Shown: positions 1 through 50,311 of the stretch, piece after piece
Layout: every line of letters starts with the position of its first letter
How positions within the stretch are numbered: position 1 is the first letter of the stretch
Assembly: GCA_914767715.1 (NCBI GenBank)
Contig: OU612065.1
Span: 23,994,001 to 24,058,000 of the forward strand
Reading direction: 5' to 3'
Length of the DNA: 64,000 nt
Origin: Membranipora membranacea
Taxonomy: Eukaryota > Bryozoa > Gymnolaemata > Cheilostomatida > Membraniporidae
Notes under the pieces: model-generated
What the model saw: only the letters and a program-made list of their open reading frames with translations
Database searches by the model: none
Told to the model about the DNA's origin: nothing
Made by a program: the position numbers and the translations under genes

Positions 1-6191
<6,191 letters not shown>

Positions 6192-10192: not shown

Positions 10193-13100
10193 ATGAATCG
10201 GTACAACGTCTCCAAACAACTTGGAGATGGAACATACGGAAGTGTTCTCCTGGCTACCAACCTAGAGTCAAATGAAAAGGTTGCCATCAAACGGTTAGTG
10301 CTTCCCAATAAAATACCAGTAGAAATGTGATTTGATGGCCTTTGATCATGACATTAACATAATCTAACACAAATTGTATATGTATATAGGTTTTACCCAT
10401 CTGTATGCCTTCAAACAATTGCTGAAATGATTTTGGCACACCAAACAACCTCCCCTGTTTACGAACATGCGTTAAGAGAATAGTTTCTGCATTATTGTCC
10501 CTTATCCATCGAAAATGTGCGTCCATCAAGTCCATTTTATAACTAATTTCAACTCGAATAATACTGATGAATAAACTATGTGAATATTAATGTCATGGTA
10601 TAGTTTTATTCCAAGAGGGAAAAAGCAATTGTCTGGTGTACTTGATGTTCCTAATTGTAAAGTTAGGTTTAAAGTATATCAAATTAGATTTAAACGTTTA
10701 CACTATTTTGTCTTCTTGTGATACGTGTTTTTCGTTTGTTTTATAGAATGAAAAAGAAATATTACTCATGGGATGAGTGTCTAAACCTACGTGAAGTCAA
10801 GGTTAGTTTGTTTTAGTGCTCAGACGATATGATGTAGGCAACATCCACGGTTTCGGCTATTCAGAAAAAAAACTGAGAGTTGGTTTTGTAATTTTGACTT
10901 GGTACATTTGGAAAAGATGTGATTCTGGAATGCATTGCAGAATCAGGTCCTTGCACACACTTGCTGACCTGTTGTTGACATAAGCGTCATAACATGTCAT
11001 TGGATTCAGAAGAGTAGCTTCATCTAATGCAATTACCACCTCATTTATACTGCTTCAACGAACATTGAGCTCTGCCTTATATCTCATTGTCTTAAACAAA
11101 AGAAAGATCTTGGCAGCATAAAAGCATAATAGAAGTGTTTTGATGTTGACATTGGGTCATGATCATTATTTGTGATACCATTCAATAAATTATTGAATAT
11201 TTAAGCCACTGTAAACACGAAGTTTCCCATCAGCAACCCCGTGTTTACCTGCAATGTTGAGTGTTAGATAATTTGATACAAAAGGAATGTGGCCCATGGT
11301 TCAATCAGGTGGCTGATCGCAGGTAAATTTCCATGCTTTGTTTTGCAGTCTTTGAGGAAACTGAACCATGCCAACATAGTTAAGCTAAAAGAGGTTATCA
11401 GAGAAAATGACAACCTCTACTTTGTGTTTGAGTTCATGAAAGAAAACCTCTATCAGATGATGAAAGATAGGTAAGTTTAACTCATCAGAGCAGGATGTCC
11501 ATAAATGAGGCCAATAATCAGCATGTATGTGATAGGTACCGATCCTCCGCCCTGTCTGCAAACTGAGAGAAACTTGGCGCTGAATATGGATCATGCTATT
11601 ATCCCTCGGTCTTCATACTGAGACCAATGAACTCCCTGAGTTCACTGCTGAGACAACCTAACCATTTTATACAACATTTTAGAAGAATAGCCTATTGAAT
11701 AAGTTTCACATTTAAATGGCGGTACGTAGGGAGTGTGAAATAACCAAAGTCGTGATGCTCTCTTGCATAAATAACTTATTGAAGTCACAATATTCAACTG
11801 CCGATACGATACGCTCTCCTTTGATAACTTACATAGCACATTTATCACGACTATTCATTCAATTCATTCAGCTCTCAAGTGTGTACATCTTTCTCTATTT
11901 TCAGAGATAAGCTCTTCCCAGAATCCTCAGTCAGGAATGTCATATATCAAGTAATGCAAGGGCTCGCCTTCATGCACAAGAATGGTATGATATTACTTTA
12001 CAAGGATAGTCAACCAAATGCACTTACATTTGACCGACGATTTTCATGCATGAATTTTTTAAATCACCCCAAAACATCAACATCGACTCATGATGAAATA
12101 GAATAGAGTTCCCAGCTGAGATTTACATTGATTGTTACAGGATTTTTCCACCGTGACTTGAAGCCAGAGAATTTACTCTGTGATGGCGCTGATAATGTGA
12201 AGCTTGCCGATTTTGGTTTAGCTAGAGAGATTAGATCCAGACCTCCATTCACTGACTATGTATCCACAAGATGGTTAGTCGGCTAACCAGCTGAAAATGT
12301 TTTGGCCGCTGTCATGTCCCGTGCTTCAACATATGGGTTTCATTTCAGCTCTCTTCTCACACTGTACCCATTAATCAGCACAAAAGTCAGCTAAACATTG
12401 GGACTGTAATACACAGGTTATCTGTAATTTAATATAGATAAGATTAAGATAAATGAAATTGGATATTTACGCTGACTTTAGTGCTGGTCAAGGTCTATGC
12501 ATGCTCTGTTTATGTAAGCTAGATCAATGTAGCATTGCTGACACTACTTCTATTCCATTGGTGTGTAGGGTATTTCCATCGTGATTTGAAGCCAGAGAAC
12601 TTGCTATGTGGTGGGCCAGATAACGTAAAGCTAGCAGACTTTGGTTTAGCTAGAGAGATTCGCTCAAAACCTCCATTTACAGACTATGTCTCAACCAGAT
12701 GGTTTGTATTCCGCTTTATCTGATAAGCGCTCATGCTCTCTACGTACATTCGTAAGACCATTAATTACAGTGTTGGTTGTCATGTCAAAATTACACACTT
12801 TCTTCATCTAAGGTGATGGATGTTCTTGCACCATCTAAGAACCATTTACTAAAGTTCTGTAGGGTATGTGGACAAATCTGTGTATCATATCCATGAGTTG
12901 ACCTTGAGATATAGCACATGATGTTCAGAACCACTTTTCTTGACGATATAAATTGAATAAGCCTGTTTTTTTTATCTTGATACCTATCATAAGTGTCAGT
13001 TCAAGTTTTGTTGGAGTTGCCAAGATACTTCTACATTTTCTAATGATTTACCTGTACAGGTATTATTTACTATCAGCGTCTATTTCAATGTTTGTTTCGT

Positions 13101-16100
13101 TATCTTTAACTTTCAGGTACAGAGCACCTGAAATATTACTTCGTTCAACGAATTATAACTCGCCTATAGATATATGGGCTGTAGGTACGATCATGGCGGA
13201 GCTGTACACACTACGGCCACTCTTCCCAGGCAGTAGTGAGATCGATCAGATCTTCAAAATATGTTCAGTTCTTGGTACTCCGTCAAAGGTGAGTATAATT
13301 GAGTGCGACTGTGTCATAACAAATAATTTGCTACAGAAAATGCAATAAAAAGGGGTTTGCATTCTGCACGTACACTGTGTCTGTTTATTTAATGCTGCCA
13401 AATTTCAAGTTGGTTGACTAATAATAATCCACTGTAGTAAATTCTTGAAAAGCCTGAATTGTGTAGAGGCATTTAAGAAGCCCTGATTAAATCATTAAAT
13501 TAGAAATTAATTTACTAACTGAACCTACTCGAGGGCAGTTTTCATTCAAAATAAACCCCAACAGGTAGAGAACCAATTTAAATTCGAAACACTCTTTGTT
13601 TCGATGTTTATTCGGCATCAAATTTATGAATCAAGAGTGTTTTCAATGAACGGCACATTGTTACAACGCTGCAAATCTCAACTGATTAAAAATTCTGTTA
13701 GAGAGGGAAAGTACACGTACATACACATCGTGTGCACAGACCAAGGGTCTCCTCGGTTTGTATATAAGGCTTATGTCATTTTGATTTGGTTGCCTGCTTA
13801 ATTTATTGCTCGCTGTTAAAGCCCTTGTTATCGATGCTGACATTCTTCACTGTCCAGAAATCGTAGTCACTAACCCCAAAAAATCAATTTTTCGTAATTA
13901 CATTTTGCATTGTGTTGCGTGATATGGATTTGAGAAGGTTGTGTATGCATGTGATGGGATGCTGTACTCGAAAATTACCTATGAAGTGTTCAGCTCGCAC
14001 TGCTGGTCAATGTTTGTTGATGGTTTTACACACTATGACAATATGACAGTTGACTTCAAAACCAAACATAGCCTACCTGTGATGTTTTTCACATTTTGAT
14101 TAAACCAAAGACTTGACTGGTAATTTAATATGTTTTACAGCAAGCATGGCCAGAGGGACACCAGTTAGCCGCGGCTATGAATTTCCGCTGGCCTCAGTGT
14201 GTGGAGACAAATCTGAAAACATTGATACCCAATGCCAGCAATGAGGCGTTACAGCTGATGAGGGACACTATGATGTGGGACCCGAAGAAAAGGCCCACAG
14301 CAACACAGGTATGTAGCTTGTCCATTATAGTAATAAATATAATAAAAGTGTATAAATAATGTAAATAAATAAATATAATATATATATATAATATGAATAA
14401 ATATAATAAAAATAAGTATATATAAATATAAGTAAAATATATATATATAATGTATCACTGCAAAACCAGTACTTGAATTGTGTGACCTGACAATACAACA
14501 TTCCAAGTATAGCTCGTTACTCATACAAAGTAATCATTCCCTATTTATTTTGTTCAGATATTAAAAAGCTCCTACTTCACAGTTGGACAGAATCTTGGTA
14601 CATCGAAACCAATGAACACATCAAGTTATGGCAGTAACATGCGACAGGCTCAACCGATTTCCCAGCAGCCTGCCAGGCAGCCATTTGCTGACACCACTAA
14701 AAACCAAAACAAAAACACCACAGACTTTCCTACATTTGGTGGTGACAATACAAACAAGAAACCTCACATGGAATACGAAACATACAAGGTAAGCAAAGAT
14801 TGCTTTTGAATTCATTCATTGTTGTTAATATGCAGAACCATTATGTCCATTCTTCCTCAATCATCAACTGAATATCTCTTGAGTTAGTCTACAGATTTTA
14901 TAATCTCCTAACCGGTAAAATAATCAAGGATTTGCATTAAAAAAGCCTTATGCTGCCTTCATAGTCTTAGATAATTTAAAATTTCACTCACTAACAATTG
15001 CATGATTTCAGTATCAAGTCCCTGGTGCTATAAGCACTGCACAACCTAAGGACACCAAACCATTGGAAAGCAGTTCCAAACCCACCAATAAAGCTGGGAA
15101 GGTAAAAGGATGTTCATTACTGATGCATTATGGATGCACAATCACACAGTTCTTGCATGTTCACATTGATATATATCATCACACAAGACTTTCTCTGAAT
15201 GTTTCAATTCAATATATTCTTTGATGAAAAACCTGGAAGGGACCTTGCACTCGGACTTGTTGCGGATTATTGATTGATCATATGTCAAGAATTTGACTGC
15301 TTGTTGGTTTCATGATGTTATTATTGTTTCGTTCTGCTGTCTCACATTAAATTTTAATTTCATTTTCTCTACATCTATTTTCCAATTAAAAAGCAAAGAC
15401 CCCTTGAGACGCTATAAATATAATTGTAATGTCAATGATTGGTCAAGGTAGGTTTTAGAACTGAGTGCAATTCCGTTATCGATTAACTATTTTGATGGTA
15501 TTTTCATGTTCCTATGAAGTAGGAGGTTTGTTAGCATGCCGTTCCTTCAGCATGTAAATGTTGAAGGTTGTGGGTACGAATCCAACTTCAGTCCACTGAG
15601 TACTGGGACTTGTTGGACCCTAAAGTGTGCTCTGACCTACCTACAAACTGAGAGCCAAATGGCGCAGACATTGCGGCCTAGCCCCTAAGGCACCCACTAT
15701 ATCATCATCCATTCTTCGGAATGTGGTGAGTGACTGTACCCTGCAATTTCAACCAACATTTATCATGGTTTTAGCCACCTGTAAAGCCTGCTATACCGGC
15801 TGCTGGTGCTAACAGGAAGAGATGGGGTGCTGCTCAGGACAGCTGGGATGACTGGGATGAGTTTGGATTGGATGATTTTGGTAAAAGTAATGCTGCGGCA
15901 AAACCTAACAAGATACCAACTTATGCTCCTGCCCCATCAATTGGAAATCAGTCTAACAAGAAGCTTATGGATTTTGAGGACGATGATTTCCTAAAGTAAG
16001 TTACGTGCCATTATTGTTGTTGTATGATTTGGAGATATCAGATGAGGGGTCAGTTAAAACACTCCATTTTTTATCAATACCATAATGGTATACAAGGCGC

Positions 16101-17694
16101 TAAAACAAGCTTCAGCTATGTTGAACAAAATACAAAGATTACAATGGCATAGTTTTTTTGTGTTTATCAGATTTCTTTACTCTGCTTAAATTTTAACTCT
16201 TGACGATAATGAAGATGTATACAAGAACTGAGCTATAATTAATATAATTTTAAATGATTCTTAAACATTTCACATTGTAGTTCCATCGGGGGCAGTTCGT
16301 CGAAGCCAGCTTTCAATTCTAAGAATCTGTTTGGTGCATCACATCAACGTGGATCTGTAGCCTCAGGTCGATCTTCTGCTTCCTCTGCTAAACAGCACTA
16401 CATGAACAAAGCCAGATACATGCCAGGTTCGTTCTTTTTACTATCACACAAGTTCAATTGCTTTTATTGATCATGCTCTATTGTCCCAGTAATTCTCAAA
16501 GCTCATTATTTAAAAGCACCCTCGAAAAAGAATGTTTATATTTTGGTGGCCTTCTTTCATGGTACTTGTGATGAAGATAGCTAACATTACCACGTATGAT
16601 GCTACACATCTCTTGTCCGAGTTATTGTATAACAACTTATGGAAAGAATCCCATAACAAATCTAGTTGCTGTAATTTTAAGATTCTTGAAAAATCTTCTA
16701 CGGGTCAGGTCAGTCTCCTAATATGGCCAGAACACTAATACAGATAATATATTCATTCATTTAAATTTCTAAACATTTATAATAAAAGTTAATTGAAAGT
16801 AACTTGTTCATCTAATGCTTACATATAACTCCAAATCACAGGTCTTACAATATATATTCATTTTATTTTCAGGAATAAACTCAAAACAAGCCCCTGCAGG
16901 CGACTGGGGAGCTTCATTCGGGAAAGGTAACCCACTGCCTGGTATCAATCTAAACACGGGTCACGGAAAACCTGCAGCCAAACTGGCTACTATCAACAAC
17001 ACTGGATATGTATCTTCATTCATGGGATCAGGAAAGAAACAAGCCAGTAAGTAACTGCTGCCTAATTTCTGATAAATGACAATTCCTTTTACGAGATCAA
17101 TCCTCATTACTCCCAGTTGATTGATAATGAAATAATGAAGTTATATGCACCTTATTTATGAGGGTACAACTCCAACTTTAAAAATGTATCTGCACTCGAC
17201 GCCCAAACTTTCTGCTCTGAGTATGAGAACGTGAGCATTATTACGGTGTAAAAACTGTTTATTATTCCAAGTATTGTTTGAACTTTTTAGATGCACAGCA
17301 GTGGAAGCCTGCTAAGTTGGCACCGATTGGTGGACAGCAGCCTAGTGCTAATGCAGGTGTAACAGTCGGTAGAACAGATTGGGCTGCCAAGTAAGTATAA
17401 CTAACTTATTTATTTCCTCGCTAGTCTCTTTAACTCATGTTAGTGCGAGTACTTAAGTTACTCTTATTTATGCTTGTCGCATTTGAGGAAATTTGCACTG
17501 CTGTTATGCCATAGATATCAAAATCTGTATTTTTATATCCATGTGTCATGTCATTATGTCAATTCGTTGTAGGAATCAGGCGCATGATTCAATCTTAGTA
17601 TATAACTAAAAACATATATACCGGCGGTTTTTGTGGCAAGGGAATAAATTCTGTGTGTGATAAGTTATTACTTTGTTTCAGGTACCTGAAGTGA
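10193..17694 (+). CDS. MAK: MAK/CILK1 (ICK) family ciliary kinase, complete, with a duplicated catalytic exon
   Basis: RCK-family Ser/Thr kinase; relatives control cilium length and intraflagellar transport and are activated at a TDY motif. Exons: 10193-10293, 10747-10801, 11349-11470, 11905-11984, then 12141-12273 or 12569-12701, 13117-13288, 14141-14308, 14558-14788, 15012-15101, 15775-15995, 16281-16426, 16873-17046, 17291-17390, 17682-17694. With either version of exon 5 the frame is continuous for 601 residues. Glycine loop GDGTYG (11-16), Lys33, [21 protein letters not shown] (Asp125), DFG (Asp143), TDY (Thr157, the human position), [19 protein letters not shown]. The long Gln/Asn/Ser-rich tail keeps family islands: [26 protein letters not shown] and the terminal GRTDWAAKY. 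One gene may stand for the vertebrate MAK/CILK1 pair. The start lies in a normal context and matches the family N-terminus. Confidence 0.96.
12141..12273 (+). CDS. MAK: MAK exon 5a (alternative catalytic-loop/activation-loop exon)
   Basis: First of two tandem versions of the same exon. It is preceded by ttgttacag, followed by the donor gttagt, and is 133 bp long. It enters in phase 1 and leaves in phase 2, as exons 4 and 6 require. It encodes residues 120-163, with [20 protein letters not shown] and [10 protein letters not shown] intact. Its own residues are Phe121, Asp134, Ala136 and Arg153. It shows no stop, frameshift or lost catalytic residue, so I read it as functional rather than a dead copy. 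Confidence 0.85.
12569..12701 (+). CDS. MAK: MAK exon 5b (alternative catalytic-loop/activation-loop exon)
   Basis: Second tandem version, also 133 bp with the same phases, 295 bp downstream of 5a. Acceptor gtgtgtag, donor gtttgt. It differs from 5a at about 25 bases, roughly 20 of them silent. Its own residues are Tyr121, Gly134, Pro136 and Lys153. Gly134-Pro136 resembles the vertebrate MAK sequence (CMGP) more than 5a does, and the phenylalanine of 5a at 121 matches vertebrates better than the tyrosine here. Including both exons, or neither, shifts the frame of exon 6, so usable transcripts take exactly one. Confidence 0.85.
14330..14452. repeat. AT-rich simple repeat in a MAK intron
   Basis: Alternating runs of ta dinucleotide and aataaatat-type units just after the exon ending at 14308. 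Low-complexity sequence only. Confidence 0.8.
15525..15690 (+). mobile_element. Possible tRNA-derived SINE in a MAK intron
   Basis: A B-box-like gggtacgaatcc at 15572-15583 follows an A-box-like ttagcatgccg near 15531, the arrangement of a tRNA-type pol III promoter. The segment after it (ctacctacaaactgagagccaaatgg... near 15640) is unlike the surrounding intron. No tRNA cloverleaf can be drawn, so this is a SINE head at most. Boundaries are guesses. Confidence 0.4.
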
Positions 17695-18577: not shown

Positions 18578-19926
18578 TTATTTTTTAAGTGCGCTCATTC
18601 TCTTTTCTAAATTTTCCATATTTGCTTTGATAACATCAACATTGCCGGTGAATGTCTTATGAATATCAGTAACAAGCTGGGAGTGTGTTCCTAGGTTTTC
18701 ATTCAACTCTGACTGAGCTGATTCCAATGACTTGAGACTGGATGAGAACTCCATAGCATGCTGATGCAAATCTTGAAGAGTGTACAGACGATCTACTATT
18801 GTCGGCAGGGAATCAGCACAGGAATCCCACTTCTTAATCAGCTCGTACAGCTCGTTGATCTTATCCATGTTCTTAGCCTCTGTGGATGCACTGTTGTCTT
18901 TCACCTGAGAAAAACAGGATTGTAAAAGCGATTAAAATTGAAACTATCCCAAGTGGCATAAAATATATGGGGCGCAAGCCGGTTGAGTTAAAAAGGTCTT
19001 CAGTTTATTTAAGCCAATCAAAGATCTTGTCAAGATTTTCCCTGTACATTACATTGCCTCAGGTTAGGCCTATATCTATCTTGATAAAGCATATTTCTTA
19101 TGTCATGTCAAATTACCTTGCTCAAGGTTTGGAGTAAGATCTGTAAGCGAGCAGACAACTTGTCCACCTTATCATCTTCAAGTAGACCAAGCTTAGAAGA
19201 CAGATGAGCAACAGATTCCATCACAGAGTTGCCACCGATACTCTCGCCTATAACAGATACATCTGCACTACGACATCCGACCATGTCTTCAAGTCGTGAT
19301 AGTCTGGATTCAAGACTAGCTTCCTTAGCAGCTTGTGCGGTATCGGGCATATAATTCAGCTCATAAATGGTAGTATTGGCTTCTCCACTTGCAGCCGCGC
19401 CACCTTTCTTGGGGCTCCCTTTCTTCGGAGCAGTGGTAAGCATACCAAGAAGCTGACTGTAGGCACGCTCATTATCATCAGGTGAAGCAACAGATAGTGA
19501 TGAAAATGAGTCTAGCTGTCGTTTCAGTGCCTCAACATCATTCATGATGGAAGCAGGGCTCACCTCATCAGCTGAGAACACTCTTGCAGAATCCTCAAGC
19601 TCTTTGACTTCACACTTGAGTCTTTGGAGCTTTTGAAGAAGACTCTCTCCTGCCTGTTCATGATGTGGTAAGATCTCATAATGCACTGAGTAACCAGATC
19701 TCCCACTCACTATGTCTTCACTGAAGTTTGATCCTGTACTGTCAACTGTGGCCTTGTTAAATCTCTTGAAAGCATCTTTTGGGTCAACCAACAGAGTCTC
19801 AACAGCAGAATCTTGATCCCCAGCATCAAACTGGCTCTGATCAGACTCTGGCAAATCTCCTGTTTCATACACATCTGGCTGATCAGCAGCAATATAGGGT
19901 AAATTCTGGTACTTTGGGTCAGCCAT
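18578..19926 (-). CDS. DCTN2: Dynactin subunit 2 (dynamitin, p50)
   Basis: Structural subunit of the dynactin shoulder, which links cytoplasmic dynein to cargo. Two coding exons on the minus strand: 19926-19117 (270 codons) and 18904-18578 (108 codons plus stop), joined in phase 0 across a 212-bp intron with donor gtaatt and acceptor ttctcag. The 378 residues are slightly fewer than the roughly 400 of vertebrate dynamitin. The N-terminus MADPKYQNLP...QPDVYETGDLPE is almost diagnostic. YELNYMPDTAQAAKEASLE, followed by ESRLSRLEDMVG, matches the central coiled-coil region. The C-terminal exon is a long amphipathic helix (INELYELIKKWDSCADSLP, LHQHAMEFSSSLKSLES). The start is the first ATG and fits the family N-terminus. 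It is convergent with MAK and divergent from RAB10. Confidence 0.95.
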
Positions 19927-21962: not shown

Positions 21963-22160
21963 GTATGTTACTGCAAGTAAGTTTGTTACCTCGTTAAAGT
22001 ATGTTACCTCAAGAAAATATAATGTTACTTCAAGTTAGACTGTTTCTTCAAATAAGTACGTTACCTCAAGTAGGCCTAAGTATAAGTTAGTTGCCTCAAG
22101 TAGGCCTAAGGATGTTACCTTGAGCAGGTTTGTTACCTCAAGGTAGTAGGCTTAGGTAAT
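21963..22160. repeat. Degenerate tandem repeat (gttacctcaagtaggcc units)
   Basis: About eight diverged copies of a 20-28 base unit whose core is gttacctcaag; the last copies add taggcctaag. It lies about 500 bases upstream of the RAB10 start. This is probably an old minisatellite; a regulatory role is only possible. Confidence 0.7.
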
Positions 22161-22619: not shown

Positions 22620-24963
<2,344 letters not shown>

Positions 24964-25925: not shown

Positions 25926-26470
25926 GTGAAGATATCTGAAGCCATAGCCATCATAGCCTTCCTAGACATGTCTAAGGTGTTTGATCACATGGATAAGTCC
26001 AAGCTTCTCACCATGCTGGTAGAAAGTCGTGTGAGTAGACGAATCGTGGCTATCGTTGAGAGTTTTTTGAGCGGCCGCTGTCAATATGTAAGGTTGGGCA
26101 ACTCCAAAAGTGCCGACCTACCTGTGAACGACGGGACGCCGCAGGGTACACTGCTGGGACCAATGTTCTGGCTGCTATATATAGACACTCTTGCCACTAC
26201 CTCAACTGAAACCATCAAATATGCCGACGACATAACTCTCACACCAAACCACACCTCCGACGCCAACAAAAATCTTCAGACCGCATCATGGGCAGCCCTG
26301 AACATTGTCTCCACCAGCTAGCCCATAGCTATACTCCTGCAGCACCCCCTCGGAGATCCGCCCGCCTAGACCTGCCCATACCACCATCCACTCGAACCGA
26401 ACTCAGATCGAAGGGTCCGCTCATTTTCTATCATAATGTTCAAAAGTCACTCTCGATTCCACTTTTTTTG
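25926..26470 (+). mobile_element. Decayed non-LTR (LINE) retrotransposon fragment with reverse-transcriptase motifs
   Basis: An open stretch of 131 codons (25926-26321) carries reverse-transcriptase blocks: AFLDMSKVFDHMDKSKLL, the fingers/palm block GTPQGTLLGPMFWLLYID, and the catalytic YADD. Another frame at about 26320-26450 encodes a segment resembling the end of non-LTR polyproteins (RRSARLDLPIPPSTRTELRS, then LIFYHNVQKSL). The thumb and linker between them are missing, so the copy has an internal deletion and a frame change. No endonuclease domain, poly(A) tail or target duplication was found. It is dead. The clade (CR1/Jockey-like or other) cannot be settled by eye. Confidence 0.85.
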
Positions 26471-28371: not shown

Positions 28372-31300
28372 CTAGGCTTGACTAGATTTAATCTCGTCAC
28401 TATCATCTGTTGAGTGGGGTTCGGTAGGTAGAGAGCAGTCTTCACTACGAGCGTCCTCTAGGCACCGGTTATACATAGTTTGGTAGAAATCTCTGTTCTC
28501 CTCCAGGTGGCAGAGCTGTTTACTTGCATTACTGACCAGATCACCCCAAGTCTCCCACAACGGGTGTACTACGTAGGTTATAAATCCAATCTGAGACAAG
28601 AAACATCATCAAATGAGCAATAGAGGACTCTTAATTAGGCTCCCAAGTCACTCATCATTACACTAACAATGTTAAAGCTAACCAGCTGTGTCAAGAAAGG
28701 GGGCCAGTTCTAAAAATAGCGCAGTGGCCCTCGGTTGACCATAGTGACAACTGAAACCTGGACGTGTGAAGGACACCAATTATTGTGAACCCTGAGTGCA
28801 AATTATCAATTGATTTAATTGTCAAACACAGGAAGTAAATACACCGAGAGCACAGGGGACTGGAAAAATCAATCATAAATGTCCTCCAATGGGGCTCGAA
28901 CCCATGGCTCCAGTGGCATCAATTGACAGACGGTGGATAGCCATCACGCTAGGCCAAGTTTGGTCCATTTGCATGCATTCGGAGTAGCTCTCGATCCACT
29001 GGTGGAAGGGGAGCAACTGGAATGCAGGCAAAATGAATCAAACTTGTTCCACCATCACGCTAACCAATTAAAATTGCGCTGAATGGGTTATGAGTGCATG
29101 ACTCCCAGAGGTGAATAGTAGGAAATCTAGTTAGCACCATCGACGCTTTCTTTTATGGGATGGTGTGTTAATTAGCGAGCCTGTATTCATGACTCGGAGT
29201 CGTGCACTCGCATCCCACTTAGCACATTCCATTCTGCTGCCACCCTATTTAACACTTTTAGCCTTTATAATGTGTGTGAGTCATTGAGTTTAAGACCCCT
29301 GATAGTATTTAGCTGCATCTCCAGTAAACACATACATAAACAGGTTGCTCGGCATCTATATATGGTGTTCCGGTGTTTACCTGTGTTCGAGCGACAGTTT
29401 CTTTAAGTTGAGCCTCATTTTCCGGCCTCTCACACATGGGACTAATTGCCATATCTAGTTTCTTCTCGCGATCACCTTGACAGAAAAACTCCTCTGTGAT
29501 CCTATTTGTCCATTGATTGTAAAAGTTACGAGGTTTTGTAGGGTTGCTTAGGTCTGCGCAGTGCACCAGATTCTGTAGAACCTGTAAACATGCATATATA
29601 TGTATTATTATCATAAACATCTAAATACTCATTAAATACATATAAACACATATAAATACGTATACAATTCATAGATATGTAAATATTTATATGATTATGA
29701 TTGTTATGTACACCGTCAAAGCCAAAAGATATCTCAAGAACCTCAAGGCAGCCTTGCATAAACATCTTCAGGTACAAGAATCAATCACGCCCAATTCTTA
29801 ATTTTCAGTAGCTAAGCTGCTCAGATGTCAAGATGAAATCAACTTGTTAGCCTATTGAGTCAAAAAGAATTATTTTGATTGAGATGATCCTGAGCAGTTA
29901 ATCACATATCGTAGGATACACTCATATCATGTTCACTTGTGTATACCTACACATTACCATGTAGGCTGTTTACCTGAATGCGTTCAGCATAGTTGTCTAG
30001 CTTCAGTTCATATGCAGCAGCTACTTTTTTGGTTTCAACCATTGTTTTCAGGTCAGCTAGCAATCCCATATGTTTGGACATATCAGTAGCGAGCACCTAA
30101 GAGAAAAATGATATATGTCATTTAGATTCACAAATACCAAGTCATATGTTAATAATGTGGACGCAGGTGGGAACAGGGTAGGAATAGACTGATTTCAGAT
30201 CAACCGGCAGCAGTTGGCAGGTAGTTGGAATTTTGCCAGTGCTGAGTAGAATAAAAAGTACTAGGACTACTAGTGTTTACTTATCAGCAGCTTGTAAACT
30301 GTTCACTTACTACCCCAAATAACATGAAGCTTCCCACTGCGTTGTAAATGCATGTAGAGCCAATATTTTCTTTTGCCTGGCACATAATGGAAGGTCTCCA
30401 AAGCTTTACGTAAAACACATATTCTTTTAAATAAATCTCGGTTTTAATCGTCAATCTAAGAACATTAATCTCCAATGTAAATGTTCAGCTCGTTTTCAAT
30501 TTTATTTGATTTTCATTTAAAACCCATGAGAACAAGGTTCTTAATTTCAAAGTCAACAAAATGGCAAGTAAAACCACATTACAATGACGCGACCAGCGAA
30601 ATATCGTACTAATTAAATTTATTGAAGGACATTCAGAAGGGTCCAGTTTAACAGCTACACATTTCCATCTCAAAATCATGTCCTGTAATTCAAGTGACTT
30701 TCAACACCAATCCAAATTTGCTTGTAGTCAATATTCATTATTTCAGTAGGGTTTGGTGCACAAAAAGTATATTTGTATAAGAAATGGTATATGTCAACAT
30801 CACATCAATACTGACCATTGCGTCTCCACAGCAATGTGGCAGCGGGGCTGACATTTTGCACTTCAAGAGGTCATTTACGTAGCGCTATGTCAACATAAAG
30901 CTATCAGCCTACTTTGACAGAATGTTCGGCGTTCTATGCTTGCATAAGCATAGACAGGAAACCCATAAATGCAGGCGTTGTGTGGTTCAAGATAGGAGAG
31001 GCACACACAAATTAATGACCCTCTTAGAATGATAATTAAAAAGTCATTCACCCTCATACACTTCCTGTGTATATGTATATAAGTTAGTTTGACACTTTGA
31101 ATGTCAAAAATATGTAGCATAATTTCACAGAGTAAGGATATATATCCTTACTCTGTGATAATTTGTTGTAGGGAAAAATCATTCCCACGATGCAATGGTG
31201 GTGGTTAGAGAAAACTGAATTTTTGTACACATTCTGTATGAGCAGTAGTTATACAAACTTACCATATCGATGGCCATTTTCCTCATACTCTTCCACTGTT

Positions 31301-34300
31301 TGGCAGATAGATTAGAGAACATGTTACATCCCTCATCCTTGAGTAACTGGAAGGCTAGTGATATATGATGGTTTTCTAGAACTGATTCGTCATTGTACAG
31401 CCAGGCTAACTGATCCTCTGCAAACAAATACACACAGCATAAGTAGTTTTCAATTCACTTGCTGATGGTAGAGAACATCAGCGTGTTGATGACCAGTTCT
31501 AATTTAAGTCAGCAATAATACAGGCAGCTGTGAAAATTCGCAGACATTGAAGAATGATGTTGTTCCATGAGCAATGTCCCTATAGGTGCATCATGCTTGT
31601 CTTGCGGATGGTCGTGATATTTTTAGGAAGAAGTTGGTAATTATCTGAATCAGTCTTACCTGTACCGACAAGAAACTGGTTTGAGACTCCTGGATGGTCA
31701 ACATCATGCGCCGCACAGGCAAATAGTGTAGATAATATCTCCAGGTCATTGAATATTGGCTGAAAAAAATATATCATTTGAGCGATGAACATCTGGGCGT
31801 CTGGGCAATCGCGAAAGTAATAATAATATATTTACCAACAACCACCATTACTACTGAGACTTTAAATTCAGTATCAGTCAGGACCCACAAGACCACAAGA
31901 CCCACATGCAGGTTGGTGGTCTTTGCCAATGGCGACGAAGCCATTTTTGCCAATAGCGATGAAGCCGTACATGCTACTTCTCCTGTGATAAGCAATTAGC
32001 AGTTGTGCAGCAGTCATACGGCAAAAAGATTAGCATAAAAAATTAACAAGGCTTTTGAATAAGTGAACTTGAGACATGACACATGTATATAACAGACACC
32101 CACAACAATCCCAATCACAGCCGATCCACATGAAATAATCAAGCCATGCTATTAATGATTAGTATAACGGTGAAACACAAAACCAAAATGAGAAGAGACA
32201 GCAACAGAAGAATGTTAGGGTATTAGAAAGCTAAGCGACACACCTTCAATACCTGGGCATTTAACAAGACGTGTGCAGACTGCACAACGTCAGCAGCGTG
32301 CATGTTATTATGGTACGGAACATCCTGATGGTAATGTGCTTCTAAGTGCATCAGGTAAGTCACTAGAGTCTGTGGGTTTATTTGGAAGATATTCATTAGG
32401 TTTCGTCTCTACAACAAACAGAACGGATCGTTAACGTTAAAAGATCATAAACTGAAAGAAAAACAGGCTATAACATCACAGAGTAAGGATATATCCTTAC
32501 TCTGTGATAACATGGAACGTGATGTTTGAACAAATTTTCATATTGCAATTACTATTTTCTGCCAAGCTTTCCTGGTCGTGTTAATACCAAAAAGAAGCTA
32601 AAGACGCTTGATGAACATATTGACTAAAGTTTGCATGCGCTCACTGAAGACTTTAAGTGTGTTAATTAACTCCTTTGTACAAAAGCATTGACCTGCAGCT
32701 TTGACGTCATGAATTAATTAAGAGGCTGATTAACTGTTTAATAAAACTGGATGGTTTGCTGCAAAGATTAATTAGAGAGCAAAAGACTTGATGCATTGAT
32801 CAAGGCCCTATGCAAACACTATGCATCCGTCAGGCTGCCCAACCATTGAACGTCAGGTCAGCCGACGGAACATTTTGTAACCAGCATAAATGTCACAGCT
32901 GTTTTTCCTAAGTCCATGACACTTCTCGTTAAATGTTCCAAGAGAAATTTGAAGCTGTGATCGGTTTGCTGTTTAGTCACTGATTCAGAACTTACCTTCA
33001 TTATGGTGTAAGTGATACAGGTAAGAGGTCTGTTGTTGGATAACTCATTTATCTTAAATATGTCTATTCCCCAGTTGTCTATGTTATCCAAATACTGAAA
33101 GTAATAAAAAGCAACTTAGGCATTATGATCTTAGTAGACATTATCAGAAAATCTTCAGACAACAAGAGTTTATGGACGCAAAAACCAAACCTATGGAAGT
33201 GGCAACATTTGATGAGGTTTTCAGAAGTGGGGTTGTGTTGGAATACCATGTTTCAGTGACCAGTATCTTGCATCAAGGAGTTAGGGACAACGCCTTGATT
33301 GCATAGATGTGCTTTCCTAGTTGCTTAATAATTGATGACCACAGCAAGAACTAATTGTCCTTCAATCAATGCAAAACATTGATGAGCCAGTCAAGTACAA
33401 AATGGTAGTGACCAATAGTGATCAAAGCCAACGTAGTCCAGCGGGACCAATAACAGTTATTTACAACATCATTCGCTCCACAATAGCCACCTCCTTTCCT
33501 TCCTAATATTCCATAATTAGCTACATCCGCCTTCTGCCTTGTAGCCATAAACCCATTATATTTTCATTGTAATTCCTCCCTGTTTCAAGACTACCCAAAG
33601 ACCAATGCATGTTAAAGTCAGGCAGTTACCATGCAAATCAGACAAAATTTTATCATAAGTAACTGCTTTACTTTAATCAAGGAGTAATTCCTTGCTTTAT
33701 TAACATACATACAGTCTTTGGGTAGCCTTTAAACTAAGATGAAAAATGAACAAAATAAAGAGCACTATAAATTACATACTTGCATAAGTTCTTGCTCGTG
33801 TGAGGTTTCCACTCCAGATACAGGAATATCTTCAGGGCACTCCGGTATACAGCCTGTTAATGAGTTTGTCTTGGAGAGTACTTTTGGAGAGATCTAATAA
33901 AACCAACAATAATTACAGGGCCAGGAAACACAGCAATTCAATTAACTCAAGAGAAGTCTGGCAGCTTGCTGTCACAGCTGGGTCAGTGTCATCCACTCAC
34001 ACACGCAGCAGTGTCTGCCTCTGACTGGCTCACAAAGTAGTCTAAATGCTCGGACTGCTACAATGCGAGTTAGAGGCATTACATTATCAAATAGATGGTT
34101 GCTAATGTAATGCCACTAGCTAGCATTGTAGCGGTCTGAGCACTTAGTCTAGGCATGTAGTTATTATCTCATGCATTAGAAGATGAAACCAACATGATAC
34201 AGGCCCGGGTAGCTAAAATTCATTTCCTTTCAGACACAGATGTTTAGGAACATAAAGGGTCTAAACCCAGCAAGAAGATCCACCCAATCTTCTGTGAACC

Positions 34301-37300
34301 ATGTCGATATCAGGGATGAGAATCTCAATTTGGTAAGACTTGGATTTTGTCAGATTATTTTGAGGACATTTCAAAATTAACAGTAAGTGTTAGAACAGCT
34401 GTGCCAGATGTCTTCAGGAATCTTCTATTGATTTTTGACAAGTGCTATAATTTTCTTTGAAAACATCACTAGAATTGAGTAGCCAAGCTACCATGTGCGT
34501 TTACAGATTAAGGTATAATACAAATGCTGCATAGTATGCTATGAACTAGAAAGAAGCAAACCTCAAAAGTTTAGTATAGTATGTCTTCAGGAAATTAATG
34601 ATAAAGATGCCTAACAAGATTAGCTCTACAGCAACCAGCGCAGAGATCAGGGGTATGTGGGTAACATAAAGAATGAGTGTGTTCCCTCTGAGGATGTGGA
34701 GTGATATTTAAAAAGCTTTGTGCCAAGGCGCGGCACTTCAATTCCTCACTTTTGCAATATCACTCCGCCACCACAGGGAACAAACTTGTCCTAGGTAAAA
34801 CACAAACCACAACTGAACACTTTAGAAGGGGTCCACTTCTTATTATATTACCTGAGTAGTATAGCTGATCTTTGCGCTATCATCAGATGTTGTTGCAGCA
34901 TCAGCTGATGTGAGAGGTAATGGTGAGAATTTACCAGCTGAGCTACCTCCCTCACTCTCCTTGGGGGAAGGCAAATCCAACTCCTGCTCTTTATCTGTAC
35001 AACGTAAAACAATCGGGTTAATCGCTACACATCACTTCCCTTTGATCAGTGTCCCGTAATAATAAAGTTTCAAAACTTCAAGACACTTTGCCCGGCAGCG
35101 TTTTATGTAAACTAACATGAATGATAAAAAAGAAGACAATATGTAGCCTAACTGCAATCAAAATTTTGATGTAGCAGTAACCATATGTTGTAGAGAACCT
35201 ACTCCGTCATGTCACGGGAACAATTTTATTAGGTTAAGAGGTACTTACCCAGGTAAGTATTAATGATAAATTCTGACACCCTGCTATTGCCTCCAGCAGA
35301 GTTCGTGCCGGCAGCTTCAAATGCTGTCAGCTCTTTGCCTAGCATCTTACGGAACTGTAAATATATAAATTCCACCATTTACCATACGCGTTTTCCGTAA
35401 GTCACGCTTAGCGCATTAGCAGAACTGGAAAGTATAACACCAAATCCTAGCTAACACGCTTAGCCACCAATGATCAAAATATCTTTTGTTTCCTTTTGTA
35501 TCCTTATTAATATCAATTTTACTTATCTTCATTCTCAAGCCTTTCCTCTTTCCTTTTCCCCTTTTTTTTCGGCACTATTTGGAAAACATTCTAATATTGA
35601 TATTGATATGAAAAAGACTGCTAATAAAAATGTTAGAAAAAAGTATGAGCTTCTATAATATACCTTCGTTGATGCAAGATCACCCACTGATCTGTGTGTA
35701 TGCATTGTCTCGAGCTGGTCTAAACACCAATCCAACTCCTCGAGGGTCTCCCTTGCTATCCTCTGTCCTTCTTCATCTAAAATTATCAAAAAAATACACA
35801 AGTATTTAATATTTGACATCAAACACAGGGTTAATCGATCGATGTCTTATTATATCAATTTGGCGTTTAAAAATGGATGTGACACCCAATGGTCGTTAAT
35901 GTCATCATTATGGTCAAAATAATGAAATTTGATGGAAAGTAAAAAATGAACTACGCAATAAGTTCCCCTGTCAGTTGTCACTACTGCTGCTATAATTGTC
36001 TCGTCCTTTCACATTAGATTTTTTACAAAACCATCTGTATTAAAACGCTGTAATGGGCTGGGAATTCAAGGTTAGAGCTAAAAGAGCCATTATGTTGCTA
36101 AAGTTATCGTTTGCACTCTAGAGGGAATTCAATCAATGGTCTCAATACTCATATTTACGTCATAACGCTGCAGCAATTATTGGATCACTACTGCTAATTT
36201 CAGTGCGAAATATCATAATGCCTTATACTTTCCTTATTCTTAGAACAGGAGCAAGTACCGAGTAGTAGGTGAGCTATAAGTGAAAGCTCAAACCATTTAT
36301 CGGCATCGTGAGAGAACTTCTCGATTTTGGGGCATATGAGAATATGCTTACAATAGTAAAATAAGACTTATCACATTTATTTAGCACACCCCTGTACAAG
36401 GTAGGGGTGGGCAAGCTATGGTTATATATGAAGAGCTCACCTTCATTAACAGCATGGGTAGCAACCGGAATTCGAACACGCAACTTTCAGATTGAGCAAC
36501 TCGAATCCTAATCACCACACCACCCTGCCAGCCTTAGTAGGGTAGCATAATACATAAAGCTCTTACCTGAGGTAGAATGTTTCATATTATTGACATTATT
36601 CGCTTGTTGAGGAGTGGTTGAGCCTCTTCTACCCCTGAAATAACAATCAAGAATATTTTTTATAAGCCACAAATAGTCATGGCACTGATATTGAGGGTTG
36701 GTTGTGCTGACATAGGTACATTTATGTCTGACGTCCCATGCAATTGAAAAGATTCTGTTCCCAAAATTTTTTCCATAGAATGATTTAATGATAAGCATGA
36801 CTGTAGGCTAGATCCTGGTACCTCTGCAGGGGCTAAAGATCAATATCCTTACAGTTTTGCAAAAATAAAACCAACTGTTTTACTAGTCTCAAAGGTGCAA
36901 AATTTATCTTTCGTCGATGTCATTCACTATTGCAGCTCTCGCCTGTATACACACAATTTATAAATTGGTATCAAAATTCCAAAATGTGGATATGATTTTG
37001 ATTATGTTGGAGATGGATGCTATTTGGAAGAAGCCATGGCTCGCTGCCGCTGACAACTTGTGGCAGGTAACATCACTATATACCAACAACCTGTCAGCAT
37101 CTGACAGACTGACATAATGGCAGGCTTATCTTGACAACACAGGTAGGGATATATTTCCTTTTCCTTTGGGCATTATCATCACAATAGACTGTTAACTTCC
37201 AGGTCCTTTTCATTTTGTTCACGCACAGGAACAAGACAAAAAAAGGAGATCGAAGTGATTAATGAACATTAGACACTTTACTGCCTCTCTTCAAGGATGT

Positions 37301-40300
37301 AACATATTTTGTTGGTAGAAGCGATGGTAAAACTTCCTACAAATACCTACTTTGGATTAGATACTTTGGTTATGAACATGAAGTTATTCCTGACTGTTCT
37401 CAGTGTCTGTAAGATCTGAGCAAATGGCGTCACGATTACATCCTCATGTCTATCAACATAAACATCAACATAAACATCAACATAAACATCAACAACATGA
37501 ATATGAACGTAAACCAAACACAATCCACCGCACCAGAAACAGAGCGTTCACTTAGTTCGTTTTTTACAATTTACAATTCGAAAGTTAGTGAAATCATAAA
37601 AAATTTATGATATACATGTAATTTTTTTGGCAGATCGTTTTTTATTTCATATTTTGTGAGATCAAATTCATAAAGATTGCCAGCCTACAACAGCCTATGT
37701 CGCAACGAATAGTCTAAGAAGCGAATGCAGCTTCATTAACTATGAATAGCAATTTTTATGCGAAATCCAGTATGGTCACAATGGAATCGTCAGGTTTTAC
37801 TCTGGTTTTACCATAGACCAAACACAACCCAGTGTGTTGGCTTTGGTTTCTACCAAGAGTTTTTCACATGCTGTTACATGACTTGCAATGACATTTGGGG
37901 CATTTGTTCATGCAGTGCCAGCTTTTCAAGCATTTTCCTAAGTACCAGTTTGAACTTTTTTGACACTATAAATGGCTTCACTACCATACCTATATAGTTA
38001 TATTATCCGTGCTCAGATATTATTCTTGAAGGTCACTAAACCTCTCATAGTTAAAGGTGTAACAAGCAATCGGATGTCCTTTTTGCTCATGGAGCTTCTC
38101 AAAACCCAAACTTCATAAACATTGACGATACAGGCAAATTCACAATAGTGGCTTGAGAGAATAATTACATAGCGTGTTCCATTCTAGTGGACAAATTATA
38201 TCAGGTACATCAATAACATATTCTTGTCACAAAGTATACAAGTATACAAGGGTATGGTGATTATCCTAATAATACTCTTTAGAACCTTATATTTAAATCT
38301 GAGCTCTCTATTTGCAAACATTGAGCTTTTCTCGATAGTGCAGCAGCTTTGGAATGAAATGAATGAAATGTGTGTTTTTTCTCTCTACCATTATGTTGTA
38401 GTTTGTAGTGTAATTTCAGTATTCATGATTCTACGATGTTTTTTCGATTGTTTCCAGTTTTTGTTTGCAGTTCCTGTAAACTTGTCTTGATCATGGCTCC
38501 TACCAACAAGCTTGCTCCTACCTATGCCTATAATTCATAGATGTATAGTGACTAAACAATGACACAAGTCGGCAAGCAGCGTGGCGCACACAGCAGCATA
38601 CTTCATGTATACCTTTCTCCTCCCGATGATTTCCAACAGATCCCGGAAACATATCACCTGTCATCAGTCTCACTACCACTGGCACTTACCCAGGATTAAG
38701 ATAATGGTCGTGACCGTCAAACTCGTGAGAGTTTAGAAAGGAGGCTTTGTAAAGCCTCTGAGGTGTAGCGGATCGCTTTATACCCTGAGAAGGAGAAGGA
38801 ACGTCTAGCTGCTGTAAGCGATCCATGTTAGACATAAGAAGACCATTAGTGTGAGGTGTTCTGGAAGAGGAGTCGTGATATAATATCTGTGGCAGCTGAG
38901 CTGAGCTAGTTAGAGCCATCAGAATACTGACTGCAGTCACGACATGTTCTCTTATAATATAATATCTTTATAATAATCCAAGATTCAAGCCTTTTCTTCC
39001 AAGCCACTGAGTGTGTGTGTTTGCGTTCAACTTTGATCAGCAGCGCAGTCGTTTGTTCTCGAGCCTTGGTGTGAGTGTGTGGGTTTCAGTGTATAAAGTG
39101 AACAGCAGCAGTATTTCAGTATTTGAGTGTCAATGCAGTACTTCTATATATGTTATAACTGCTTTGTATTGTGTACAGCCTCACTTTACTAAGCTACTAA
39201 GAATCTACGTCATCAAGTAGCTATGATCAATCAATAACTTCAATGACCACACTCTCCTTTCTTTAGAATATCGACTGAGGTAGTTAACATGCCTTACATT
39301 TTTATAAGGGTGCTGCGAATGGTACAGTATTATTAATGCTCTGCAATCAAAACAATTCAAGAATTAAGAATACCATCCACGCACAAAATGGAGAGTGTTA
39401 CACAATCATTATTAGTACTGTGTATATAGTAAGTACAATTATGAATCGCTGCTGCATTACAGATTTAAGATTTGAAACTTATCCAACGTGTATAAATCAT
39501 CTTTGCAGTTTACCTTGGGGTTTTTTTACCATTCAGATTTGAATAATGTCTTAGAAGCGCTGTATCTTATCATGATGTAAACTTTTAATTCTGTGTTTGT
39601 TGCATATTCATGGATTTATGGTTTTGGTAATAGATTTAAATATCATAATTGATGGCCTTGGCAATATTTTAGAATATCAAAAACAATATCGTTAGCTAGA
39701 ACTCTGTCAGCCTCCTCTTCTTGATGTTTTGCGGAGGCCGCACAACTAGATAACCTCATCTCTCATTTAATTATTCAAACCCTGATTTAATTTTCGACCA
39801 TGGCAAAAGAAAAACTTGGTGCTTCACATATACTATCACAAAACTGCATTTCTAATAAACTTTTTTCTTAGATCAATGGACTCCATACAATCACAAGTAG
39901 AGGTTTAACTGACACAAACCTAATTTATTCATCTCTTTTGATCATGACTATAATCTGCATGTAATTTCTGATGTGAATCAATTGCTGTAGTAAAGAGGAG
40001 ACAACTCCAAACTAGTGTTATATTTTTTAGAATTGATTTCTTAAGGATTTCTACTCTACCTGTAACCATGCATTTGGTTATGAGATTTTAGGATGGATGT
40101 TTTAATACGTGCATTTCAGAAGGAGGAGTTTGTGGTTAATTTATTGCATTGTGTGGTGTTTCTTCACCAGAGCAGCGACAGAGGTAATTTGGCCACTCAC
40201 ACTTGGTGTAAATGTAAAAAGGTCGGAGCAAAAAAGTTAATCACAGGGTATCACTAAAAGTGAGGTAAGGAGAGAGAAAGTGAACCAAACATAGGTCAAC

Positions 40301-43300
40301 ATTCAGGTGCACCCTGACCACAAGTATAAAGATGGGTTAAGTTTGTTTGCTTGGCTGGTTGCCTATACTACGACCTGTTGCACTTTATTAACTAGGGGAG
40401 TTATCTGCTCTGTGGCGGAGGCTTATCATTGGTCAATAATTTACTGGTAGTTTAGTATTTCAAGCTATTATGAAACTAGGTTTTCTGGCCACCACACAAC
40501 ATTGATATGAAAATAACAACCAAGAACTTGGAAGCTTTGAAACTAATATTTAGTGCTGACATTGACAGGGTTCACCCAACTAAACTTTGGTACCTGATGA
40601 AGCTGGTAGGACCCGCAACACCAGCAGGACGTCTAGAAACAGTTTAGTGTCGGCTTTAGTCATGAAATAAGCAGGAAGCAAAGCATATAGGTGAACACAA
40701 AGTGACACAAAAGGCTTAGAACCATTGATCGGTCCAAAGGAACCTATACAGGCTCGTTTTTTAGCGGGACAATCTAACTTAACACATGTAAGTGTGGCGT
40801 GTTCATTAAGTATTTTTGGGAGGAATCTTTAGCGTATATACGAGTGTGAGTAACTTGAATAACAATGCAAATTAGGTGAAACATACCGAGGTGAAAGGCC
40901 AGCAGCGTTGTTAAACTGGCTGGCCTTCTGTAGTCTAGATAATGTAATCGGATCGCTGCGTACGAAAAACACAGTGACTCAAATGTAAATCAGCTTGACC
41001 AGAGAGAAGGAAGAAAAGCAAGACAGTTACACACTGATGAACCCTTTGTTTCTAAAACCCATCCCATGCCAAACGATTTCCCGGAATTTGCTTACTAGCA
41101 GGTCCTAGCCTTGTCACGCTGCTATGTTTTTGTTTTGGGTACTCCCCAAAACAAACAAAAGTCGCAGCGCGACAAGGCTAAGCAGGTCCTTATTCAAATG
41201 CAATGAATTCCCCCAACAGTAGGTATGACATACTACACGCAACTTGAGGTAACCTGTCTTGACAAGCTTTGTTGTGGGTTGGGTCTCCCCCCCCCCCTCC
41301 TCAACAAAGCTTGTCAAGACAGGCAAAACTTGAGGATGACATAGGTAGATATGGAGGTGCCAATGCGAAAAAATTATAATTATCTTTTTGGTGTGTGTTG
41401 CGTATACATGAGCTGCTCAAGGTAATAGATATGGGAGATGGCAATTTTAACTATCAACAAACCATTGCGATGCTTACATACAAGTATATAAAACTTAGCG
41501 AGCAACGGGGAAGAGCATCACTGAATATCGCGATGTTTGGGGTTGATGTCTTTACGTGTGCAGTGCAAGGAGCTAACCTATATTGTGGACTCAACTCAAT
41601 TGACTGATAGAAAAAAAGCTAGGGAAATAAATATTCAATAAATTTCAATCTTCAAGTCACTAATTTTATACCGCCAAACATAGCAGTTAGAATGTAGAAT
41701 ATGATCAGCTGCTGACTTGAATCTCAACTTCCCTCCCTGCAGATTTATACTAACTACAATATCATATTAGATGTAGTGAGGTGAACCAGTAAATCGGTTA
41801 CCATTCATTATATCTGACCTGTTGTAATTTTTACGTTAACAAAGAGGGGACAACTTACATGCTATCACTAGCTAGAGAAGAATGGCGTGAGATAGACTTG
41901 GTTGAGAGGTCAAATTCACTGTCTGATCTGTAGAGAAAAGACTCCCTCCGCTGCTGTCCCATACTGCTGAGATATAACGCTGTATTTGAAGCTGGGCTAG
42001 CTCCATCTGGATAAGCTCTGTCATCTCCATCAAAACTGTTAACGATAAATGATAGACATTGTTCATGATTAAAATTTAGGTACCCTGCAGCGTAACAAAG
42101 TTTACCTGTAAAATTCATTCGTGCAATGATCAGGACCCTACTTCACCGCTTCACTCCGCCATACACAATACAAATTCTTTTTAGCTCCGACATCTGAAAG
42201 GGCATATTAGCACAATTACGTAGACATATGGTTCACTACCTGTCTCAGTAAAAAAGCAAACGCAGACACATACACAAATACATGATGTGAAAAATTTGCG
42301 AGATCTGAACTGAATGTTGATGAAGAAATAAAAAGATGAAGACGTAAATATGTTTGATGCAATCTTTTTTCTGCAACTGGATCCAGTTATTGGGCAATTA
42401 ATTTCTTATTTTTCAACTGGCTACGCAGGCTGCTCATAGATACAGACCATACTAAGGCCGTGTCATAGTGCCAACAACTGACTGCAGAGGCTTTCGTAAT
42501 GTGTTATATGTGGTATATGGACATGACAGTTATTGCAGTGAAAGGTGACGAACACAACCCTTCGTTTTGGCTATGGTGATGGCTACGGTAACGATGACGG
42601 CATTGTCTGCAAAAACTATGGTCCAGCCATAACATCGCTGATCATAGCTTAGTAATGTACGTATTGCTGTGGCGACAATGAGTACAAACATGCCTTAGGG
42701 GATTTTGTGGAACAATACAAAATTGACAAAATCCTACCGCCTACGCTATTTGCAGTTCAGGTTAAAATAACATAACCAAAATGATGGCTCTTTTGTTGAT
42801 GTGAGCATCAATATTAATATACAAATACAAGGAGATATGCAAAGGATCTGACCGAACACGTGATCTCTGATGGTGCGGCTGTGTATCATGTTGACGGTCA
42901 TCTGGAGAATGGACATTGAGCTTTATTATTCCTGCTACCATGATGGGAGATATCACTCGATACACACAAAGCTCCACTACTAACTTTCAGAATGAACTTT
43001 GTGGAAGGAATGTTACTACACACACATATTTGAAATTCCTAGTGCAATGAATGACTTCTACTAATAACCAGAGTCAAACAAAGTCTATTGCATTGCACCA
43101 AATGTCGCTGCAACAACCAGCATAATCATGAACTGACTAGTTTCGCCATAGTATTGCGATTCAGACACCAACTTCCAAAGCCTCTGAGTAATATCATAAC
43201 AACAAGGCTTTCAAAACATTGTGTTTTTCAAAAAGACTCACCAGCTAATAAAAATATCCATCTTCTCAGCAGAATACTGCCGTCATGATTGAAATTGAAC

Positions 43301-45165: not shown

Positions 45166-45850
45166 CGCTGGTTCCTTGCTGAGTCAACGGAACAATGAGT
45201 AAGTATTCACAAAAGCCGCTACTTCCATTCAAACCGCCAAGTTCCTACTCGGCAATTATCTTAGCTTGCGGATAGTTCATCGTATCAAAGTAAATACCAG
45301 AGCTCCAGAGGTTATGTCTAACTCGACTTCACTGAATGAACACTTGCTTAGAGGAACAGAGTGGCTTACGCAACTAACTGGAGGATAATGTCAAGCCAGA
45401 TGGGCATTTATTACACCCTGTAACAACAGTGTTATCAACCAATGCTCAATAAATGTCTCTACAGGCCTTTCAATGTGCTGAGGGGGTATTATTAGTAACA
45501 TAAAATAAACATTCCATTTGCAGGTCATAAGATAGTATTCCAAATTAACAGAGTTTAGGCAAACATTGTTGTAATATGTAACCATTTAGCTGAGCAGAGC
45601 CTTCGATGCTGATTTATGCATAACAACAGTTTGAAGAAATGCGGCCAACAGTCAGGACTATCTCATATTTTGCGTCGGGTTGGTGCTTAAAACAACCAGA
45701 CTATACAGCCCGCCATTCCAGAAATCTATAACACTGACAGCCTGAAACAAAGGTGCAACAACTTGACGGTACCGGTTCTTATTTATTACTGAAGACATGA
45801 TACGCTACGATGGGGGACTTCCATAGCGTTGATAACTTAGCTACACCAAC

Positions 45851-45981
45851 CTGTTATAACCGTCCGAGATGATGAGAGTGGGTAGATTTAGCGCGAGATG
45901 TATCGACGATGCTGTGCTGGTCGCAGCTGTATCTGTGGAAGTACTTATACTCCCATCCATACCAGAACTGTCCAAAGACAT
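45851..45981 (-). CDS. PDE4: Candidate PDE4 alternative first exon A
   Basis: From ATG 45981 the frame is open for 43 codons plus two bases (MSLDSSGMDGSISTSTDT..., then a hydrophobic stretch LALNLPTLII), ending at a weaker donor, gttggt. It leaves in phase 2, as the UCR1 exon at 42035 needs; the junction codon would be Ser. The N-terminus is Ser/Thr-rich. Support is phase, open frame and position only, so it may be an isoform start or chance. Confidence 0.4.
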
Positions 45982-49905: not shown

Positions 49906-49935
49906 ATCACAGAGTAGGATATCATACTCTGTGAT
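49906..49935. repeat. 30-bp palindrome (TCACAGAGTA family)
   Basis: Arms atcacagagta and tactctgtgat around a near-palindromic centre; third copy of the family found at 31125 and 32476. Confidence 0.75.
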
Positions 49936-50311
49936 GTAAGATTTCCAGCAAAATGAAATGTCTGGCAGGTCGAGCTCAGTTGTCGCCAAACAACAACAGA
50001 CAGTTAAACCAATCATTCCTATAAGACCGCCTACTGGTTTGGACTGATGCTATAAATAACAAAACCAAGATAAATCTCATTCAATTATCTTTGATATATT
50101 ACAGCTCAATTGTCAAGAATTATCTAATCTTGATAGAGCCAAGCTATCAAGATGTCAGAATTTAGCAGCCAGTGCCAGCTTGGACTCAAAACAGATTAGA
50201 TAAAAGACATTAATAGATATGGGTCTTGTGTAACACTGGTAAATGAAGTAGCTGAGTTGTTATGTTCCATGTCTCTACAAGACAGTGATGACAACAAGAG
50301 ACAGTTCTAAT

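Follow-up and report, generated by a model that had tools for sequence, protein, structure and literature searches.

A candidate pair of mutually exclusive exons encoding the catalytic core of a MAK/CILK1-type kinase in a cheilostome bryozoan

The kinase gene and its surroundings

The window, which is the whole stretch of 64,000 nucleotides analysed in this study, contains a protein kinase gene with two neighbouring copies of its fifth coding exon, here called 5a and 5b (Table 1). After splicing, the reading frame is open from ATG to TGA and gives 601 aa with 5a and with 5b alike. The encoded kinase domain carries the HRD, DFG and TDY motifs and is most similar to MAK/ICK proteins, and on this sequence basis the gene is assigned to the MAK/CILK1 (RCK) type of an invertebrate. 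HRD and TDY were present in all of the best 120 listed homologues, of which the named ones were mostly MAK, ICK and dyf-5. Among 7980 scored candidates, the best protein match was a MAK-like protein of Watersipora subatra (P0001, 76% across the full length), in which Pfam recognises a protein kinase domain, followed by an ICK of Bugula neritina (P0002, 68% over 80%). Both species are cheilostome bryozoans, and by these matches the window is most likely of bryozoan origin. The sequence-only reading had compared the gene with vertebrate MAK and CILK1; the MAK/CILK1 type stands, but the vertebrate frame does not, since the two best matches are bryozoan. MAK/CILK1 kinases form a family that controls cilium length and is tied to human ciliopathies. 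The ciliary localisation and function of the present kinase are assumed by analogy with that family.

Several other features were observed in the window. Upstream of the gene, a putative doublecortin-like or CaMK-type kinase gene was noted by eye (1-6191, + strand), and a weak tblastn match to the MAK catalytic loop was found at 4111-4176. Putative genes, also recognised by eye, were a dynactin p50-like gene (18584-19926, − strand), a Rab-type GTPase gene (22622-24963, + strand) and a PDE4-like cAMP phosphodiesterase gene (28384-45990, − strand) with exons far upstream. An open frame of 131 aa at 25926-26321 (+ strand) aligned with positions 69-172 of the 205 in the Pfam reverse transcriptase profile PF00078 (E 3.9e-11) and is identified by this match as a retrotransposon fragment. 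At 21965-22160 lies a degenerate tandem array, its units resembling ATGTTACCTCAAGTAAG. The two short, near-perfect palindromes at 31127-31156 and 32478-32505 share one sequence (ACAGAGTAAGGATAT or its reverse complement). Four matches were found against 0.3 expected, and these palindromes may represent a small mobile element with inverted repeats; judged by eye, another of the kind seems to lie near 49913-49936. The window gave no match to Rfam.

Table 1. Positions of the kinase gene, its coding exons and associated motifs in the window
Feature	Position	Strand	Remarks
MAK/CILK1-type protein kinase gene, coding part	10193..17694	+	14 exons with one exon 5 copy, 601 aa
Coding exons 1-4	10193-10293, 10747-10801, 11349-11470, 11905-11984	+	
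Exon 4, constitutive	11905..11984	+	donor ATG/GTATGA (slash at the exon end)
TGCATG upstream of 5a	12047..12052	+	weak evidence
Exon 5a	12141..12273	+	F121, D134, A136, R153; HRD catalytic loop, DFG, TDY activation motif
Intron separating 5a from 5b	12274..12568	+	295 nt, GT-AG, TGCATG at 12498
TGCATG upstream of 5b	12498..12503	+	weak evidence
Exon 5b	12569..12701	+	Y121, G134, P136, K153; HRD, DFG, TDY region as in 5a
Exon 6, constitutive	13117..13288	+	frame restored by exactly one exon 5 copy
Coding exons 7-10	14141-14308, 14558-14788, 15012-15101, 15775-15995	+	
Coding exons 11-14	16281-16426, 16873-17046, 17291-17390, 17682-17694	+	

Structure of the exon 5 pair and selection on its copies

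The sequence-only reading had described two exons of 133 bp with a gap of 295 bp, and these coordinates and lengths are exact. As it had also claimed, acceptor and donor are separate for each copy and the phases are equal (one base in, two out), each copy lacks an in-frame stop, and each encodes the HRD catalytic loop, DFG and TDY. Its count of 25 base differences is likewise exact (108/133 bases identical), and 20 of these 25 fall at third codon positions. The number of residue changes had been put at about five. The four listed changes, F121Y, D134G, A136P and R153K, are correct, but the number is exactly four: 23 of the 45 codons differ, 19 of them silently, and 41/45 residues are identical. 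Both copies have AG at the acceptor and GT at the donor, and blastn aligned 129 bp of the two at 82% identity (E 8.7e-33).

The duplicated unit is a direct repeat of 141 nt (12139-12279 and 12567-12707) that consists of the exon, its AG and six donor bases; it spans the acceptor AG to the sixth donor base and no further. Of the four direct-repeat families detected in the window within a distance of 5 kb, it is the longest. Among 1565 stretches of 25 aa or more that are free of stops, five neighbouring matches were obtained; four were the exon 5 pair or its antisense, and the fifth was a match of 16 aa at 81% near 49.5 kb. No third copy of exon 5 and no copy of the gene's other 13 exons was found in the window at E < 1e-4. 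Seven successive codons (codons 24-30; 12212-12232 and 12640-12660), from the DFG region to REI, are unchanged between the copies without even a silent difference. As a conserved splicing element this run was rejected, as it was not significant (P 0.09).

The copies are neighbouring and homologous, free of stops, equal in length, and share phases and splice-site pattern. Equal length, equal phases, the same splice-site type and sequence similarity are the common properties of mutually exclusive pairs in the available part of PMC3228551, and all three sequence criteria given there apply to 5a and 5b. According to the same part of that source, only 90 of 16180 non-mutually-exclusive exons of Drosophila X-chromosome genes share such features.

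Selection was estimated on 45 codons only and with dS near saturation. The Nei-Gojobori method gave dN 0.049 and dS 1.65 between 5a and 5b, and maximum likelihood gave dN 0.038 and dS 1.30. With 25 random changes, not one of 2000 simulated exons stayed at or below four residue changes; when 13 random changes were placed in one copy only, 3 of 2000 did. Because dN (0.04-0.05) is low against dS (1.3-1.65) and neutral simulations do not reproduce the pattern, the earlier claim of purifying selection on both copies is upheld. On the same pattern of change, in the dN/dS estimates and the simulations, a pseudo-exon was rejected.

Bryozoan homologues and the age of the duplication

The exon 5 segment was compared across 339 proteins. 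Eleven of these yielded no segment, and another 95 were omitted because their segments differed in length (91 of 44 residues, 2 of 42, one of 52 and one of 63), leaving 233, a set that includes plants, protists and near-duplicates. The Watersipora subatra segment agrees with 5b at 45/45 residues and with 5a at 41/45. The Bugula neritina segment agrees with 5a at 41/45 and with 5b at 39/45, where the gene model starts at exon 5 and its first residue is not comparable. Among the 233 segments, G134 occurred in Watersipora only and D134 in Bugula only, while Y121 occurred in 24, K153 in 13 and A136 in 3. The likeness of Bugula to 5a hangs mainly on D134, with F121 and R153 being common states. The comparative evidence thus supports the occurrence of both kinds of segment in bryozoan proteins.

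Relative to Watersipora, exons 1-4 and 6 differ at 4/177 residues, 5b at 0/44 and 5a at 4/44. The two copies in one gene therefore differ more from each other (4/44) than the neighbouring exons differ between the two species. Because Watersipora has the 5b form entirely while Bugula is nearer to 5a, the duplication, going by these segments, is very probably older than the split between the window's species and Watersipora, and it perhaps predates the Bugula split too. The Watersipora protein cluster contained one member sequence, and there was no second isoform in the database at 90% clustering; this species may lack 5a, use it seldom or simply have it unannotated. A second bryozoan form was not recognised among the matches listed in two further protein searches. 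The strongest match of one of these (P0241) was considered for that role and rejected, its segment not being bryozoan-like. Each protein among the best 120 homologues has one segment, against two encoded here, and three MAK isoforms of Mustela erminea (P0070, P0087 and P0089) are identical over the exon 5 segment.

Exon choice, rival explanations and possible function

Inclusion of both copies leads to a stop after 168 aa and inclusion of neither to a stop after 136 aa. The sequence-only reading held that the length of 133 bp enforces a single choice. This is right as far as the double and null products are concerned, which are frame-shifted with early stops, but the splicing step itself is not forced: the frame shift makes wrong products unproductive rather than compelling a choice during splicing. 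Splice sites were scored with a small matrix built from the gene itself. The donors scored 8.4 (5a) and 6.7 (5b), against 3.9-10.0 for the gene's 12 other donors, and the acceptors 6.7 (5a) and 6.6 (5b), against 0.1-9.4 for the 12 other acceptors. The exon 4 donor, common to both choices, is the weakest of the 12 constitutive donors, a weak lead to how the choice is made.

Known causes of exclusivity were considered. There was no sign of steric blocking, as a branch-point-like site lies 28 nt before the 5b acceptor, in an intron of 295 nt. Competing RNA pairing of the docking and selector kind among the three introns did not exceed that of shuffled sequences (z −0.4, −0.5 and 0.15), and the observed pairing energy was reached by 10, 9 and 16 of 30 shuffles for the three intron pairs. 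Incompatibility of U2 and U12 sites was also not indicated, as the donors GTATGAT, GTTAGTC and GTTTGTA do not resemble the U12 consensus. TGCATG, a motif of Rbfox type, lies upstream of each copy. It occurs twice in the 866 nt of the three introns, where 0.31 would be expected; with six motifs examined and no correction applied, P is 0.04, and the motif is a weak lead.

Since no steric, RNA-pairing or U12 cause was found, we infer a choice controlled by factors. Each transcript would take 5a or 5b, splicing factors that differ by cell or stage would make the choice, and the frame-shifted products with both or neither copy would be removed by nonsense-mediated decay. The outcome would be two active kinases that exchange a segment beginning shortly before HRD and ending with the activation loop. 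Taking the evidence together, we believe, with a probability of about 0.8, that 5a and 5b go back to an old tandem duplication of the exon and have been retained as a mutually exclusive pair.

HRD (123-125), DFG and T157-D-Y159 are retained in 5a and 5b. Both forms should be catalytically active, because all catalytic motifs are kept in each. Alignment with CDK structures places residue 121 two positions before the H of HRD, residues 134 and 136 in the turn that follows the catalytic loop, and residue 153 in the activation loop, four positions before T157. The vertebrate MAK and CILK1/ICK proteins belong to the same family, and in mouse Mak and Ick phosphorylation of Thr-157, which has the same residue number as the threonine of TDY here, is needed for activity, as stated in the accessible part of PMC11412320. 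The four changed positions could influence how the upstream kinase activates the enzyme or how substrates are handled. The sequence-only reading had suggested that residues 121 and 153 could make the forms differ in activity; a subtle difference between the forms seems likelier than an on/off one, because Y121 and K153 are also found in other MAK/ICK proteins. Extending this, we tentatively propose, at somewhat worse than even odds, that the ciliary MAK/CILK1-type kinase of cheilostomes is made as two splice forms that exchange the whole catalytic core (HRD loop, DFG and the activation segment with T157/Y159) as a unit. This ancient pair would be used in different ciliated tissues or life stages, e.g. 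the larval corona and the lophophore, and exon choice would set the control of cilium length or turnover or the response to the upstream kinase.

The pair may instead act mainly as a switch of expression, with the two exons nearly equivalent for the protein and splicing factors deciding whether a transcript is productive or, with both or neither copy, decayed. Three observations are in keeping with this: the exon length is not a multiple of three, so that neither inclusion of both copies nor skipping of both gives a productive transcript, the catalytic motifs are equal in both copies while Y121, P136 and K153 are found in other MAK/ICK proteins, and the donor of exon 4, which both choices share, is weak. 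Against it, the 5b residue set is preserved whole in Watersipora, which suggests that the protein difference itself has been maintained, with the caveat that general constraint on a conserved segment could explain this too. We consider such a switch unlikely. It is more improbable still that one copy is disused and slowly decaying. By the Watersipora annotation this would most likely be 5a, as that species is in the database with the 5b form only, but the Bugula gene model uses a 5a-like segment. Moreover, the changes are mostly silent over both copies, stops and frame changes are absent and the splice sites are intact, and a neutral copy with 13 random changes almost never kept its residue changes to four or fewer in the simulations.

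An assembly artefact, in which two alleles or two genes were placed in tandem, is least probable of all and can nearly be dismissed. Misplaced alleles would match in their introns, but here the introns do not align, exon identity is 82% and at each end the repeat goes no further than the splice signals, so collapsed alleles were rejected. The residues of the two copies also occur separately in two other species. Among these readings we continue to prefer two selected copies that are used in a mutually exclusive manner.

Tandem exons of mutually exclusive use are well established, kinases included; for this gene and this site our search showed no earlier report. The alternative exons 6a and 6b of JNK1 and JNK2 (MAPK8 and MAPK9) lie in a later part of the kinase domain. 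Like 5a and 5b, they form an alternative pair within the kinase domain of a CMGC kinase with few residues changed. They differ in belonging to another gene family, the present gene being of MAK/CILK1 type and not a member of MAPK8/9/10, and in that the exon swapped here itself contains HRD, DFG and TDY. The resemblance is one of way of working, not of descent. In JNK 6a/6b, 5-7 residues are changed and altered substrate binding is reported, according to the available portion of PMC8699841. FYN (FynT/FynB) also has tandem duplicated mutually exclusive exons in a kinase, chosen in a tissue-specific manner (PMC9741552). Unlike the present gene, FYN encodes a tyrosine kinase, and its exons exchange the linker between SH2 and kinase domain together with the first part of the kinase domain, where the ATP site lies, instead of the catalytic and activation loops. 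Among the papers listed by our literature search, which covered few subscription papers, none described such an exon pair for MAK, CILK1 or dyf-5, or one in which the catalytic loop and the activation loop are exchanged together. Nor did any of the listed papers deal with mutually exclusive splicing in bryozoans. MAK and ICK were not found in the main text of PMC5740500.

Exon pairs within kinases are few, and the described ones that were found alter other parts of the domain. A natural swap of the catalytic loop and activation segment with four residue changes would test which positions near HRD and T157 tune MAK/CILK1. In bryozoans, the pair adds a datable splicing innovation.
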